From NCBI RefSeq assembly GCF_900176345.1, contig NZ_FWXU01000019.1, forward strand, positions 1-64,000: 64,000 nucleotides of DNA, read 5' to 3'. A model generated the notes under the pieces. That model was not told the origin of the DNA. It did no database searches and saw only the letters and a list, made by a program, of their open reading frames with translations. The position numbers were made by a program, and so were the translations under genes. The DNA is from Rhizobium sp. RU36D (GTDB lineage: Bacteria; Pseudomonadota; Alphaproteobacteria; Rhizobiales; Rhizobiaceae). Of this stretch, positions 21,619 through 28,895 are shown piece after piece. How positions within the stretch are numbered: the first letter of the stretch is position 1; every line of letters starts with the position of its first letter.

Positions 21619-22494
21619 CTAGTTGCAGCCGCCCTTGACATAGGCCACCATGTCCGCGGTGTCCTGGGTGAAGGCGGGGCCGTAGACCCCGTCCTGGTCG
21701 CCAGCAGAGACGACGCTCACCGCCTTGTATGGCTCCCCGGTGCCGATGAACCATGCGCCTCCGCTGGCACCACCGCCATACATGGGGTGAGGACGTGCGT
21801 CATAGGCATTGCCGGCCTTGAGGATCACCGTCGCGGTTTCCCGATACATGTATTCGCCCCCTTCGAGGCGCCCCGGATAGCCCGTGATCGTGACCGCGGC
21901 ATCGACTCCCGTCTCACCCAGATCGTATCGACCAACCGCCGACGGTTTGGTCGTTCGCATGGCGGCATAGTCATATTGCGATTTCCCCAGTGATACCGGG
22001 TTCGTGGATATGTTGGTCCATTCGGTAAGCACCGCCGCCATGTCGATGTCATAGTTCGTCCCGCCGCCATTGCTGTAGCCCTGGACGAACCGAATGTTCG
22101 TGGCCGCCTTGCCGCCTTTCCAGAGACTGTGTGCCGCGCCGATCACGATCTTGTCGTCGGCCACAAACTGGGCGCTGGCCACATAGTCATCACCATCGCG
22201 GGTGTAGAAGAGCTTGCCGCCGAACTTGTAGGGCGCCTCCCCGATCGGTGCGCGCTCGGCATCGCCATCGGTCAGGGGTTTGCCCAGCTCAAACGGCGAA
22301 CCGTCGAGCGGCTCGGACTCAGGCTCTGGCCTGGCATTCGCCTTCCGCTCGTCGGTCCAGTAGTCCGCGGCGGCCGTGGCGATCTGGCTGACAGTCGGCG
22401 CCCAGCAGGTGAACCTGTCGTCCGCCAGGGCTCCTCCGGCCGGCGTCAGATGAACGGTCAGCGCGATAGCCGACACTCCGAGATATAGTCGCAT
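21619..22494 (-). CDS. Secreted trypsin-like serine protease
   Basis: A 291-residue exported protein. A signal peptide ends near GGALA (about 24). The chymotrypsin-like fold is supported by the triad: His in IGAAHSLW, Asp in YDYAAMR and Ser in GGGASGGAW. Disulfides are few. It is similar in scale to V8/trypsin-like extracellular peptidases, and likely acts in the periplasm or outside. The ATG at 22494 was chosen because it starts the signal peptide. The gene is convergent with the Crp/Fnr gene and divergent from the ABC-F gene. The substrate is unknown. Confidence 0.8.
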   Translation of the reverse strand: MRLYLGVSAIALTVHLTPAGGALADDRFTCWAPTVSQIATAAADYWTDERKANARPEPESEPLDGSPFELGKPLTDGDAERAPIGEAPYKFGGKLFYTRDGDDYVASAQFVADDKIVIGAAHSLWKGGKAATNIRFVQGYSNGGGTNYDIDMAAVLTEWTNISTNPVSLGKSQYDYAAMRTTKPSAVGRYDLGETGVDAAVTITGYPGRLEGGEYMYRETATVILKAGNAYDARPHPMYGGGASGGAWFIGTGEPYKAVSVVSAGDQDGVYGPAFTQDTADMVAYVKGGCN

Positions 22495-22650
22495 GATCTC
22501 TCCCCTATTTTCTTCGAGCGCCAATATCGACGCATCAGAATCCTACTGGGGCGGGGCTGGGATGGCTGTTTCGGGAGGCACAGGCGAATTCCTTTGCTTC
22601 GGCGGCTCGGCTCTTGTCATCGCCAAGGCTTTCAGCCAAAAGCCAAGGCC

Positions 22651-24563: not shown

Positions 24564-25730
24564 TTACCGCTCTGCCGAAGACCTGGGCTCGCTGGTGAAG
24601 GCCAGGATGGCGAACAGGCCGCAGGCGACAGCGGCAAAGATCGCCAGTCCATGGGTTGCCGCCTGCATGGAGAAGCCGGCCGCCAGTGGTCCGATCAGGG
24701 CGCCACCGCCCCAGGTCAGCCCCATCAGCGCGTAGATGCCAACGAGATCACCACCCTGGAAACGGCTGCCGACGATGGTCAGCGCCAGCGTATAGATGCC
24801 GACGAAGAAGCCACCCCAGACAAAGAGCAGCACATAGGTGGCAACAGGCGAGGATAGCGCCCAGGGCCAAAGTGCTGCGCCGCCGGCGGAGATCAAGGCG
24901 CAGGCGATGATCAGCTTGCGGCGGTCCATCTTGTCGCCCAGCCAGCCAATCGGCAGTTGTAGCAAAATAGCGCCGATCATCATCACGAACATCAGTTGTG
25001 CCGCGCCTTCCTGCTGCCAGCCAAGGCCGACGGCATAGAGGGCTAGGAAGGACAGGCCGGCCGTCTCGATCGCGGCATTCAACGTCACGGCGCCGATCGC
25101 CATCGGTGCGAGACGGAAGAAGCGCAGCGGATTGCCCGAGGAGGGCTTTTCGAAGGCCGGGACGATGAGACCCGGCAGGAACATCATGCAACTTGCTAGC
25201 AGGGCAACACATGCGCCGAGAAGGAACGGCAGGCTGCCCTGGGCGCCGACCAGCGACAGTACGAGGGGGCCGAGCGCCAGCCCCAGCGAAAGCGCTGCGG
25301 TATAAGTCGCCATGGCCCGCGAGCGCGTGCTTTCCGTGCTCAGCGCATTGATCCAGGTTTCCGACAGCACGAACAGCGCCTCCGCCGACATGCCGAGCAG
25401 CAGGCGGAGCGGGAACCACAACCAGATGCGATCGATCATTCCGAAGGCCACCAGGATCAGGGCGGACATGCCGAGCGAAGCCAGGATCAGCCGGCGCGGT
25501 CCAAAGCGGGAGGCAAGCCTGGGCAGAATGAGCGCGGTGATCAAAACACCGACGGCATGCATGGCGGCATTGATGCCGATCACGAAATCGCTGGCGCCTC
25601 TCGCTGCCATTTCAAGCGCAATCAGCGGTGCGCTCAAGGAATAGGTGAGCCCGAAGATCATCGCCGTCACGACGACAGCGGCTCGGGACAGGAGGGAGCC
25701 GCGACCGGAGCCGAGTGCAAGTTCAGTCAT
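24564..25730 (-). CDS. MFS transporter
   Basis: A 388-residue major facilitator with 12 predicted helices. The loop 2-3 motif reads RLASRFGPRRLILA and the loop 8-9 equivalent GWLGDKMDRRKLIIA. SETWINALSTESTRSRAMATYTAALSLG resembles the YcaD-like group of putative exporters. Inner membrane; substrate unknown. It overlaps the upstream HdeD-like gene by four bases (TCATG region), so the pair is cotranslated, suggesting a shared envelope role. Confidence 0.87.
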   Translation of the reverse strand: MTELALGSGRGSLLSRAAVVVTAMIFGLTYSLSAPLIALEMAARGASDFVIGINAAMHAVGVLITALILPRLASRFGPRRLILASLGMSALILVAFGMIDRIWLWFPLRLLLGMSAEALFVLSETWINALSTESTRSRAMATYTAALSLGLALGPLVLSLVGAQGSLPFLLGACVALLASCMMFLPGLIVPAFEKPSSGNPLRFFRLAPMAIGAVTLNAAIETAGLSFLALYAVGLGWQQEGAAQLMFVMMIGAILLQLPIGWLGDKMDRRKLIIACALISAGGAALWPWALSSPVATYVLLFVWGGFFVGIYTLALTIVGSRFQGGDLVGIYALMGLTWGGGALIGPLAAGFSMQAATHGLAIFAAVACGLFAILAFTSEPRSSAER

Positions 25731-27058
25731 GGCGTAATCTCCTTCACGCCCCTGCCGACAGCATGGTCATGCAACCAGTCGAGAAGCTTCAGCGGAAATG
25801 CGGCATGGTTCGGTTCTATGATCCGCTGCAGGGTCCGCGCGTAGTCGAGAACGATGCCAGGGGTCCAGCACATGTGCTCCGCACGCGAACGGATATAGGC
25901 GGCCTGCCAAAGCGCGGGTGTCAGCAGCAGGGCAATCAGCCGCAGCCAAGGATAGGAGCAATGCAGGCTGCCCTCGAAGGCCGATTCCAACCCGCCGGCA
26001 ACGGCAATCGAGCAATTTCTGTTGGTGACGTTGTAGGCGTTCAACTGGCTGTAGCCCGCCCAATAGGCTTTGAGCCGCCGCAGGTCATACCGGGTGAATT
26101 CGACATGCTGGTCCGCCGCCGTCCAGTCCGAACATTCGTATTCGTAGGAAGGCAGGAACATGCCCTGCATGTCGTTCTTGGCGCCGGAATAGAACACATG
26201 GGCGAGATCGCGGGCGCTGGCACGGATCTCATCCACCGGCCAATGGCTGAGATAAACTTCCCCCGGCACCTCCAGGGCGGCGTGACCGGTGGACGGTTTG
26301 CCGTCGACATCGAATGCCATGAGATAGCGGTCGATGATCGGACGCCTGGTCTTGATGTCGGCCGCTCCGGTCGGCGTCCAGACATGGACGGTGAGAGCCG
26401 GCTTCGGCCCCTCCTCCGGCTCGTCGTCGCCCACCAGCACGGGTGCATTTTCATTCCAGTTGCGCGTGCCGAACAGGGAAAAGGCATAGATTGCCATCTC
26501 CTCCGGCTCGTTGCGCAGCGTGATGGCGAAATGCAGCAGAATACCGCCGGAACCGACCAGCAGCAGGCCGATGCAGATCGGAATGTCGAGATGCGCGGGC
26601 AGTGGCCAGTCGCTGACGATCAACACGGCAAGCAGCATTTCCACGACGCTGAGGGCGACCGCCTCGCGCCAGCGCGGGAACCGGACGAGCCCCACCAGGA
26701 ACAGGCGCGTCAGGCCATCAACGGCAAATCCTGCGGCAAACAGCCAGCCCAGCACCGTGACGTTGCCCGTGGGGGCCAGGAAGATCAGGACACCGAGCCC
26801 CGTCAGCAGAAGTGCCTTCAGCCCACTGGCAAGGCGGCTGGCTGTCGTTTCCTTCGAGGCGGTTACCACGATGCCGATGACGCCTTGCAGGAGGAAGACC
26901 AGCCCGAAGAACTGGGTGGCGAAAATGGAGATGCCATCGGCAAGATCGGCAATGATGACAACGGCCAGGAGGATCAGCGCGGAACCGACAACGGCCGGAG
27001 CCCACCAATGGGCTCGAAACGCCTTTCCACCGATCAACAGCAATGCAAGCTTAATCAT
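25727..27058 (-). CDS. HdeD-like membrane domain fused to a papain-fold-like domain
   Basis: A 443-residue two-part protein. Residues 1-~185 form about six membrane helices of the HdeD/DUF308 type (FFGLVFLLQGVIGIVV, GWLFAAGFAVDGLTRLFLVG). The C-terminal ~240 residues are soluble and contain a histidine in TGHAALEV followed later by a cysteine in TNRNCSIAVAGGLE. This His-then-Cys order, with NC before a helix, fits circularly permuted papain-like (LRAT/PPPDE/NlpC-like) domains. That assignment is inference from motif order. It could be a membrane-tethered peptidase, amidase or acyltransferase. Cotranslated with the MFS gene. Confidence 0.72.
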   Translation of the reverse strand: MIKLALLLIGGKAFRAHWWAPAVVGSALILLAVVIIADLADGISIFATQFFGLVFLLQGVIGIVVTASKETTASRLASGLKALLLTGLGVLIFLAPTGNVTVLGWLFAAGFAVDGLTRLFLVGLVRFPRWREAVALSVVEMLLAVLIVSDWPLPAHLDIPICIGLLLVGSGGILLHFAITLRNEPEEMAIYAFSLFGTRNWNENAPVLVGDDEPEEGPKPALTVHVWTPTGAADIKTRRPIIDRYLMAFDVDGKPSTGHAALEVPGEVYLSHWPVDEIRASARDLAHVFYSGAKNDMQGMFLPSYEYECSDWTAADQHVEFTRYDLRRLKAYWAGYSQLNAYNVTNRNCSIAVAGGLESAFEGSLHCSYPWLRLIALLLTPALWQAAYIRSRAEHMCWTPGIVLDYARTLQRIIEPNHAAFPLKLLDWLHDHAVGRGVKEITP

Positions 27059-27059
27059 A

Positions 27060-27153
27060 CAAGGGGCTCAATGACATCGGAACTGTGAGCCGGTTCTAGA
27101 CCATGGCGGTAAACATGACATCCCAGGACAGCGCTGCTGCCCTGTCCTTTTTT
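27060..27153 (+). ncRNA. Candidate small RNA ending in an orphan terminator
   Basis: The plus strand has a hairpin (GGCTCA 27065-27070 with TGAGCC 27086-27091) followed by a strong intrinsic terminator: AGGACAG (27125-27131) with CTGTCCT (27142-27148), then a T-run to 27153. No plus-strand gene lies upstream; the neighbour starts at 27058 on the other strand. A short RNA, an RNA antisense to that gene's start, or a leader attenuator for the deacetylase gene at 27344 would each explain it. No clear promoter was found. The 5' end is a guess. Confidence 0.4.
27125..27153 (+). terminator. Orphan rho-independent terminator
   Basis: A 7-bp stem, AGGACAG/CTGTCCT, with a 10-nt loop and six Ts directly after. 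It points rightward and lies 190 bp before the polysaccharide deacetylase start. Confidence 0.8.
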
Positions 27154-27343: not shown

Positions 27344-28192
27344 ATGATTTCCCTGCGACTTCTTGCGTCCATTTCGCTTGCGTCTTGCATCGCCTTTGGC
27401 GCTGCGAGTTGCTCCACCACCAAGACAGATCAGAGCGCCCTGAAGACGGCCTACGTGCCGGCCATCAATCGCCCTGCGGAACTCAAGGCGAGCGATCCAC
27501 TCCCCATGGAACCCGCGGCCTGGGGCAAGCCGAACAATCCCTCCGGCCTTGCAGGGCGCACGCTGACGGTGGGTTCGGTTTCTGACATCCGGCTCGGGCC
27601 GAAGGAAGTCGTATTGACCTTCGACGACGGCCCCATGCCGGGCAAGACGGAGACCATTCTTGCGACACTTGATCGCTACGGCGTGAAGGCAACATTCCTG
27701 ATGGTGGGCCAGATGGCCAAGGCCCATCCGGCGCTTGCCCGCAAGGTCGCGGCACGCGGGCATTCGATCGGCAGCCACACCTGGCGTCATGCCAATCTCG
27801 CGGGCCTCGGTTACGACCAGGCGATGACCGAGATCCTGAAGGGCGAAGATGCCGTCGAACGGGGCAGCGGCACGGAGGCCGGCTTCTTCCGCTTTCCCTA
27901 TCTGGCCTCGACGCCCAAGCTACGCTCAGCACTGGCGCGCCGCGGCACAGTTGTTCTCGACGTCAGCGTCGACAGCAAGGACTACTTCAAGTCTGCGCCG
28001 GAAACCGTAGTGGCGCGCACGATGGGCATCCTCAGGCACCGCCACGGCGGCGTGATCCTAATGCACGACATCCACGGCCGCACCGCCGCAGCCCTGCCGG
28101 GGCTTCTGGCCCAACTGAAAGCCGAGGGCTACAAGGTGGTCAACCTGCGCTACAAGCGCTCCCGCATGGACATGATCGCGTCATTGAACTGA
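27344..28192 (+). CDS. Polysaccharide deacetylase (NodB homology), probable lipoprotein
   Basis: A 282-residue carbohydrate esterase family 4 protein. A signal region leads to a cysteine at about 23 (GAASC), so it may be lipid-anchored. The NodB domain has TFDDGP, the metal-binding SHTWRHANL (HxxxH type), RFPYLAST and VILMHDIH. It would remove acetyl groups from peptidoglycan or an exopolysaccharide in the periplasm; which one is unknown. The ATG at 27344 starts the signal peptide. Longer frames upstream would cross AT-rich noncoding DNA. It stands alone, followed by VapBC. Confidence 0.87.
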   Translation: MISLRLLASISLASCIAFGAASCSTTKTDQSALKTAYVPAINRPAELKASDPLPMEPAAWGKPNNPSGLAGRTLTVGSVSDIRLGPKEVVLTFDDGPMPGKTETILATLDRYGVKATFLMVGQMAKAHPALARKVAARGHSIGSHTWRHANLAGLGYDQAMTEILKGEDAVERGSGTEAGFFRFPYLASTPKLRSALARRGTVVLDVSVDSKDYFKSAPETVVARTMGILRHRHGGVILMHDIHGRTAAALPGLLAQLKAEGYKVVNLRYKRSRMDMIASLN

Positions 28193-28258: not shown

Positions 28259-28513
28259 ATGCCACTCTATGTTCGAGACGAAAGGGTCAACGAGCTCGCC
28301 GAAGAGGTTCGCAAGATCCTGAAGGCGCCGACAAAAACCGAGGCGATCCGCCAGGCCTTGGAGCGTGTGATGACCGAAAACGCGTCGGAACCCACGCTCG
28401 CCGAACGACTGGCTAAAGTGCGTGAGAAATACGATCTCCCGCAATACGCTGACCTCGAAACCTTTGATCAGAAGGCCTATCTGGACGAGATGTGGGGCAC
28501 CGATGTTTCTTGA
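28259..28513 (+). CDS. vapB: VapB-type antitoxin
   Basis: An 84-residue antitoxin of the Rv0623/PSK-type family. The N-terminus (PLYVRDERVNELAEEVRKIL, then KTEAIRQALERVM) forms a ribbon-helix-helix-like DNA-binding unit. The C-terminal part (LAERLAKVREKYDLPQYADLETFDQKAYLDEMWG) would wrap the toxin. Start: ATG 28259 with GGAG six bases upstream. Earlier ATGs at 28229 and 28244 lie before or at the expected transcript start or within the operator. Its stop overlaps the toxin start by 11 bp. It should repress its own promoter with VapC. Confidence 0.88.
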   Translation: MPLYVRDERVNELAEEVRKILKAPTKTEAIRQALERVMTENASEPTLAERLAKVREKYDLPQYADLETFDQKAYLDEMWGTDVS

Positions 28514-28895
28514 CAGCTCCGCGATCGTAGAAATCTTGCTGGATGCCCCTGAACGAGGCGCGCTACTTTCGCGCCTTGAAGCGGCTTCCGGTCCTTTCAC
28601 GACCTCCGCAACTGTCATATTCGAAAGCAGTCTGGTTCTCAGCACCAGACTGAAGATGGAACCGCAGCGCGCGCATCGCCTTGTCGAAGATTTTCTGACC
28701 GCGTTTTCGGTCGATGTTCTCTCCATTACGCGCGATACCGCAGCAGTCAGCGTCGAGGCCTTTTCCCGGTATGGAAAGGGTCGCCATCCGGCAAAACTGA
28801 ATTTCGGCGATTGCTTCAGCTATGCGGGCGCAAGGCAGGCCGGCCTTCCGCTGCTATATGTTGGCGAGGATTTCGCGCTCACCGACCTCGCCTGA
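28503..28895 (+). CDS. vapC: VapC-type PIN-domain toxin
   Basis: A 130-residue PIN-domain ribonuclease. The acidic active site is visible as D4 (MFLDSSAIVEIL), a glutamate in FESSLVL and an Asp in NFGDCFSYA; a late Asp lies near EDFALTD. Such toxins cleave tRNA or rRNA when free of antitoxin. The target is unknown. The ATG at 28503 lies inside the antitoxin gene, giving coupled translation. The pair sits between a deacetylase gene and holC, with no mobile element in sight. Confidence 0.87.
   Translation: MFLDSSAIVEILLDAPERGALLSRLEAASGPFTTSATVIFESSLVLSTRLKMEPQRAHRLVEDFLTAFSVDVLSITRDTAAVSVEAFSRYGKGRHPAKLNFGDCFSYAGARQAGLPLLYVGEDFALTDLA

Follow-up and report, generated by a model that had tools for sequence, protein, structure and literature searches.

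A predicted cytoplasm-facing thiol domain fused to an HdeD-type membrane domain and often paired with an MFS transporter in Proteobacteria

Background

What would a thiol enzyme do when it is carried on an HdeD-type membrane domain? The question is raised by a gene of Rhizobium sp. RU36D that lies in a window of 64,000 nucleotides (contig NZ_FWXU01000019.1, positions 1 to 64,000, the whole stretch of DNA analysed here). An earlier note, made from the sequence alone, described its product as six HdeD-type helices followed by a permuted papain-like domain, called this fusion unusual, took it to be cotranslated with an MFS transporter and suggested that it could act on lipids, peptides or the cell wall at the inner membrane.

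Several enzymes with the permuted papain-like fold that bear on this question have been characterised. RID and IcsB are lysine fatty-acyltransferases (PMC13059803, PMC10924143, PMC8339906), palmitoyl-CoA is the acyl donor of RID (PMC8339906) and an IcsB-like enzyme from an environmental bacterium without a T3SS is active (PMC13059803). DUF4105 is the lipoprotein N-acyltransferase Lnb and Tox-Act1 a phospholipase cleaving PG and PE (PMC12994826), and permuted NlpC/P60 enzymes with lipid-binding sites have been described (PMC3142127).

Here we present an analysis of the fused gene, its relatives and its transporter partner. With slightly better than even confidence, we read the protein as an inner-membrane, cytoplasm-facing thiol acyltransferase that is often paired with an MFS transporter.

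Results

The fused gene and its parts

The features of the locus are as follows.

24564..25730, minus strand: MFS transporter gene, 388 aa, the coupled partner (Pfam MFS_1, E 6.8e-34)
25727..25730, minus strand: ATGA shared by the stop codon of the fused gene and the start codon of the MFS gene
25727..27058, minus strand: fused gene with ATG start, 443 aa, HdeD-type membrane domain and putative permuted papain-like thiol domain
25730..26419, minus strand: putative permuted papain-like domain and C-terminal helices, residues 214-443, predicted to face the cytoplasm
26012..26014, minus strand: Cys349 codon; the predicted nucleophile, which opens helix 349-360
26135..26137, minus strand: Glu308 codon; possibly the third catalytic residue, the position being acidic in 32/32 rows
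26282..26284, minus strand: His259 codon; the predicted catalytic His, with which a core strand begins
26510..27058, minus strand: amphipathic N-terminus followed by the six transmembrane helices of HdeD/DUF308 type, residues 1-183

An ORF of 457 aa on the opposite strand (25715-27088) overlaps the 443-aa ORF; the minus-strand ORF was taken as the gene because all relatives examined align with its frame. The full-length AlphaFold2 model of the fused protein (mean pLDDT 83.7, pTM 0.82, 60 sequences) begins with a short helical stretch at the N-terminus, after which come six long helices (residues 19-41, 45-66, 72-94, 100-124, 130-149 and 155-183); a linker modelled with low confidence then leads to an alpha/beta domain that begins near residue 222. 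Modelled alone, the domain (214-443) reached a mean pLDDT of 84.1. In the model His259 opens a core strand (259-264) and Cys349 opens helix 349-360, positions in the secondary structure that fit the permuted papain-like class; along the sequence His259 (TGHAALEV) precedes Cys349 (NRNCSIAV). The six modelled helices and this order of residues, together with the structural entries given below, bear out the fusion that the earlier note had described.

Conserved residues and distribution

A pattern scan of named genomes returned 226 stretches, 212 of which were relatives, and the best 80 of these 212 were kept (L014-L093). By title they come from Alpha-, Beta- and Gammaproteobacteria, with one short contig labelled Eremiobacteraeota. 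One alignment (A2, 60 rows) holds the 443-aa protein, 58 of the 80 scan loci and one further locus (L008), the 22 scan loci left out being thinned near relatives and the incomplete L043. A second set came from protein and profile searches and has 33 loci, with L102-L107 and L094 left out as membrane-only, as a second piece or as the 443-aa protein's own locus. With the 443-aa protein added and two duplicates removed, this second set comprises 32 rows, which fall into 24 clusters at 70% identity.

Neither His259 nor Cys349 varies: both are found in 60/60 rows of A2, where the Cys count is biased since RNC, part of one of the two patterns scanned for, partly selects for Cys, and in 32/32 non-identical rows of the second set, which keeps some bias because its search profiles were built from sequences already having the conserved residues. 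The two residues singled out by the earlier note are therefore conserved across homologues. Equally constant in the second set (32/32) are Arg347, Asn348, Tyr269, Ser271, Trp398-Thr-Pro-Gly401, Asp405 and Tyr406. Candidates for a third polar catalytic residue in that set are Ser271 (32/32), Glu308 (acidic in 32/32) and His272 (19/32). Judged by its residues, the domain has the His-before-Cys order of the circularly permuted papain-like class, with both residues conserved.

Among 100 related genomes, its own included, a full-length relative occurs in nine and a match to the membrane part only in four more. A phylum sample contained the thiol domain in 16 of 398 genomes, at 18 places; all 18 have a frame of sufficient length, with 188-219 residues that align to the membrane part, a judgement made by alignment and not by an HdeD score for each case. 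In one genome (G702; L121, L129 and L130) the thiol domain protein is present three times. To call the fusion unusual is only partly right, since it is a standing family in Alpha-, Beta- and Gammaproteobacteria.

The fold of the thiol domain

Structure searches with the model gave a divided answer. Foldseek with the domain model found no solved structure at E<=0.001 (best E 1.4), and its first 50 rows held no papain-like fold; with the full-length model it found no match at E<=0.001, and this list was set aside because helical proteins fill it. A second structural aligner, applied as a re-ranking of 771 chains already ranked by Foldseek, placed MARTX toxin RID first (5xn7, Z 8.7, 137 aligned, rmsd 3.8), followed by TseH (6v98, Z 7.9), PPPDE1 (3ebq, 6.0), a deSUMOylase (DeSI, 2wp7, 5.8), Aichivirus 2A (7zv1, 4.5), HRASLS3 (4dot, 4.3) and H-REV107 (2kyt, 3.0). 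All entries after the seventh are unrelated proteins with Z of 2.7 and below. The aligner's own note warns that top Z values between 7 and 8 are often seen and that a single Z proves little, and RID and TseH, with a Z gap below 1, are a tie by its own rule. A permuted papain-like fold is suggested because the first seven entries, Aichivirus 2A included, all have one rare fold. The structural comparison called for by the earlier note thus supports the fold with the second aligner and gives nothing significant with Foldseek. The domain appears to belong to the permuted papain-like class by its residues and, less firmly, by structure.

Sequence searches of the PDB gave no match with the single 443-aa protein and nothing significant with profiles, the domain profile ranking RID (5xn7) first at E 0.72. 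The domain of the 443-aa protein does not match the Lnb_N/DUF4105 profile (PF13387). That profile is touched by 48/60 A2 relatives at E<=10 (best 6.5e-5), and its cut-off of 22.2 bits is reached by one distant relative, G708. When compared by hhalign with two Lnb_N alignments, only the Cys helix aligned, at E 0.018 and 0.017 (one-against-one values). By profile, the family does not belong to Lnb_N, nor does it have a significant sequence match to RID.

Likeness to the LRAT/HRASLS and YiiX group lies in the two structural matches HRASLS3 and H-REV107, and in the His-Cys spacing, which is 90 residues in the fused protein as in HRASLS3. The second His of LRAT-like proteins, about 12 residues after the first, corresponds to His272, which is present in 57/60 rows of A2 but in only 19/32 of the second set and is hence not a constant feature of the family. 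The fused protein further differs from LRAT/HRASLS by extra C-terminal helices with WTPG...DY.

The membrane part and the side of the membrane

The relation of the six helices to HdeD is real but, by profile, weak. Pfam DUF308 matches the 443-aa protein with 21.7 bits (E 2.5e-4), under the cut-off of 25, and also stays below the cut-off in five relatives scanned singly. No NCBIfam model is matched by the 443-aa protein; the HdeD model (PRK10209) is matched by 48/60 relatives at E<=10, with a best value of 1.1e-7. Six helices, a pattern of Gly, Trp130 and Pro152, and these profile matches are common to the fused proteins and stand-alone HdeD/DUF308, whereas the stand-alone proteins have no thiol domain and mostly do without two acidic residues of the fused ones. 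Asp114, within helix 4, is found in 60/60 rows of A2 and 29/32 of the second set, against 0/9 stand-alone HdeD proteins (Glu in 2/9). Glu140, within helix 5, is found in 59/60 and 27/32 rows, against 0/9 (Asp in 2/9). Arg118 is constant in A2 (60/60) but not in the second set (20/32). From these residues we infer that the membrane part does more than anchor the protein and that its helices may help to bind the substrate.

Which side of the membrane the thiol domain faces was predicted from charge. Lys and Arg together average 6.4 per row in the N-terminus and loops 2-3 and 4-5, as against 1.2 in loops 1-2, 3-4 and 5-6, with the loop limits set by hand and the same outcome when the stretch after helix 6 is included. 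In 60/60 A2 rows the excess is on the side where the N-terminus lies. Because of this bias, the positive-inside rule places both protein ends and the enzyme domain in the cytoplasm, so that the thiol domain probably sits on the cytoplasmic face of the inner membrane. The predicted side argues against cell-wall substrates, which the earlier note had considered. It also argues against a simple Lnb role: Lnb/DUF4105 (PF13387) shares the order of Gly-His before Asn-Cys and the weak profile matches, yet Lnb_N is described as periplasmic by Pfam, whereas the domain of the fused protein follows the helices and is predicted to be cytoplasmic. The Rhizobium genome has Lnt and no match to PF13387; replacement of Lnt by the fused protein was rejected, as this Lnt scores well above the cut-off (363.5 vs 132.9 bits).

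The MFS partner

The MFS gene is a real partner of the fused gene, and the partnership is old and close without being obligatory. Among the best 80 of the 212 relatives, a gene for a relative of this MFS protein (scored at E<=1e-20, 43-74% identity) is adjacent on the same strand in 54 loci, downstream in 50 and upstream in four. For the other 26 it is divergent in one, missing in 24, and the flank is too short in one. Stop and start overlap by four bases, in frame and open, in 49/50 downstream pairs (36 ATGA, 13 GTGA), which supports the coupling claimed by the earlier note; of 25 targets without an MFS match, five end in GTGA and none in ATGA.

The two genes also occur together across genomes. 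At E<=1e-100 the MFS protein is present in eight of the 100 related genomes, all within the nine that bear the enzyme, and one genome (G028) has the enzyme and lacks the transporter. Fisher's test on 8/1/0/91 gives p = 4.8e-11, with a threshold chosen post hoc and kinship uncorrected; at E<=1e-60 another genome, G078, adds an MFS relative of 38% identity with the enzyme absent.

That the transporter is not obligatory follows from the 24/80 loci without an adjacent MFS gene and from six of ten searched genomes without any. These ten genomes belong to the 24 MFS-less loci; six have no MFS relative at E<=1e-30, one has a relative of 34% identity, and three have one of 52-61% identity elsewhere, among them G843, which also carries a linked copy (L037). 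Serratia and several Pantoea relatives have the enzyme without the MFS partner. In Pantoea-like loci the downstream MFS gene is present in L062, L065, L072 and L091 and absent from L074, L078, L081 and L093, while the enzyme stays, which suggests gain or loss of the MFS gene. The MFS protein matches no known lipid-transporter family, an Aas-type NCBIfam model being touched only at E 0.51.

Neighbours, plasmids and names

Our own gene calling at the 80 loci, with the target itself uncalled in seven, found no constant neighbour other than the MFS gene. A polysaccharide deacetylase gene (27344-28192) was rejected as a partner, since it adjoins the fused gene only in three near rhizobial loci; an annotated polysaccharide deacetylase also lies near the fused gene on an E. 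coli plasmid. Elsewhere in the window, a 301-aa ORF with a GGGASGGAW stretch (21619-22524, minus strand) looks trypsin-like by eye and has no Pfam match at E<=0.001. A PIN-domain protein (28422-28895, plus strand; PF01850, E 2.5e-15), possibly the toxin half of a toxin-antitoxin pair, is absent from the named loci at E<=1e-8. Phage origin was rejected, there being no match in 50,697 phage records.

Plasmids carry the family as well. The fused gene occurs on IncF plasmids in 3 of 5,426 complete E. coli genomes; on pSA31IncF (L131, 6001-7338) it lies near an IS66 element, a polysaccharide deacetylase and an SMR transporter. A separate DUF4105/Lnb_N protein directly adjoins the fused gene on a Cedecea neteri plasmid (L133, 6281-6904) and on contig 5 of G702 (152836-153285), and such a protein also adjoins it on an Ochrobactrum plasmid (L132, 3559-6120), with a patatin-like phospholipase beside it. 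These neighbours hint at lipid metabolism.

The E. coli plasmid copies carry the RefSeq name 'HdeD family acid-resistance protein', and other database labels for the family are hypothetical, protease, TctB and MFS. The enzyme half has been overlooked because databases name the family by its membrane half or by one of these labels. Among the matches listed from the open literature, no title or abstract start describes a fusion of HdeD with a thiol domain. Pei and Grishin (2009) reportedly mention a group of bacterial membrane proteins, as yet uncharacterised, that are homologous to RID; if so, the fused family was probably already glimpsed in 2009. Neither HdeD nor MFS occurs in the text of PMC13059803.

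Discussion

If the protein is an acyltransferase, its six HdeD-type helices would hold the permuted papain-like domain against the cytoplasmic membrane face, where Cys349, activated by His259, would form a thioester with the acyl group of a lipid or acyl carrier. The group would then pass from Cys349 to a second substrate, a lipid or a membrane protein, in or at the membrane. The MFS transporter, which would be made from the same message in many species, might move a lipid-like substrate or product across the membrane. Acyl chemistry is proposed for Cys349 because the known activities in the fold class are mostly acyl transfer or acyl cleavage; PPPDE1 and DeSI, which are peptidases, are the exceptions. 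The acyl step is suggested by fold relatives, a lipid may be the substrate, and LplT-Aas is the closest working model for the role of the transporter. In that pair, lysophospholipid is flipped by LplT and then acylated by Aas at the cytoplasmic surface (PMC11416262), so that there too an MFS transporter is coupled to a cytoplasm-facing membrane acyl enzyme; the likeness is one of analogy, not homology, for either partner.

Other readings place the same residues in the service of different chemistry. Cys349 could take a fatty acyl group from acyl-CoA or acyl-ACP and attach it to lysines of proteins in the inner membrane or near the membrane, the MFS partner perhaps being the target, and the protein would then perhaps be a resident counterpart of RID and IcsB. 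We regard such a lysine fatty-acyltransferase as fairly unlikely, even though RID, with its permuted papain-like fold, is the best structural match and comes first in the profile search (not significantly), and both RID and IcsB act at the membrane, the IcsB-like enzyme being active without a T3SS (PMC13059803). Glu308 lies 49 residues after His259, close to the 50 between His145 and Asp195 of IcsB (PMC13059803); if the positions correspond, it would stand where the His-Asp-Cys triad of RID and IcsB-like enzymes has Asp. The tie of RID with TseH weakens this reading, as does the His-Cys spacing, 90 residues in the fused protein and 161 in IcsB (PMC13059803); RID and IcsB are moreover exported effectors that work in host cells, whereas the fused protein is an integral membrane protein that the cell keeps. 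With cleavage instead of transfer, the protein would act on inner-leaflet lipids as a phospholipase or deacylase, and the MFS protein would export the soluble or lyso product. The activity of Tox-Act1 on PG and PE (PMC12994826), the presence of HRASLS3 among the structural matches and the linkage to the MFS gene speak for it, but constitutive activity on the inner leaflet should harm the cell itself and the gene is not regularly accompanied by a regulator or an immunity-like gene, and we think it improbable.

We give slightly less credence still to a cysteine peptidase or isopeptidase bound to the membrane, whose MFS neighbour would be unrelated or would export peptides. PPPDE1 and DeSI stand in the structural list and some plasmid annotations carry the label 'protease', but the entries closer by Z, RID and TseH, are acyl or proposed acyl enzymes, and a membrane tether with charged membrane residues would fit a lipid substrate better. 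That the domain is a catalytically idle binding or sensor domain retaining the fold is very improbable: Foldseek, taken alone, finds no fold, but His259 and Cys349 are invariant in 32/32 rows spanning 24 clusters under 70% identity.

Conclusions

The acyltransferase that we favour may also be conceived more specifically. An HdeD-type domain adapted to lipid binding by its intramembrane acidic residues, a cytoplasm-facing RID-like thiol acyltransferase and a dedicated MFS flippase from the same message, which would bring in or take away the lipid, would together form a resident two-gene machine for acyl remodelling in Proteobacteria, a proposal that we consider rather unlikely in this complete form. 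Such a machine, if real, would stand beside LplT-Aas as a third design of this kind in bacteria, one that joins an acyltransferase to a transporter, and the fold that effectors of Vibrio and Shigella turn on host proteins might have its cellular source in it. If the protein is an acyltransferase at all, many Proteobacteria would have an extra acylation step at the inner membrane. A biochemical context would be gained for the HdeD domain, of whose own role little is understood, and a harmless resident relative would be at hand for studying a chemistry that is best known from host-directed effectors.
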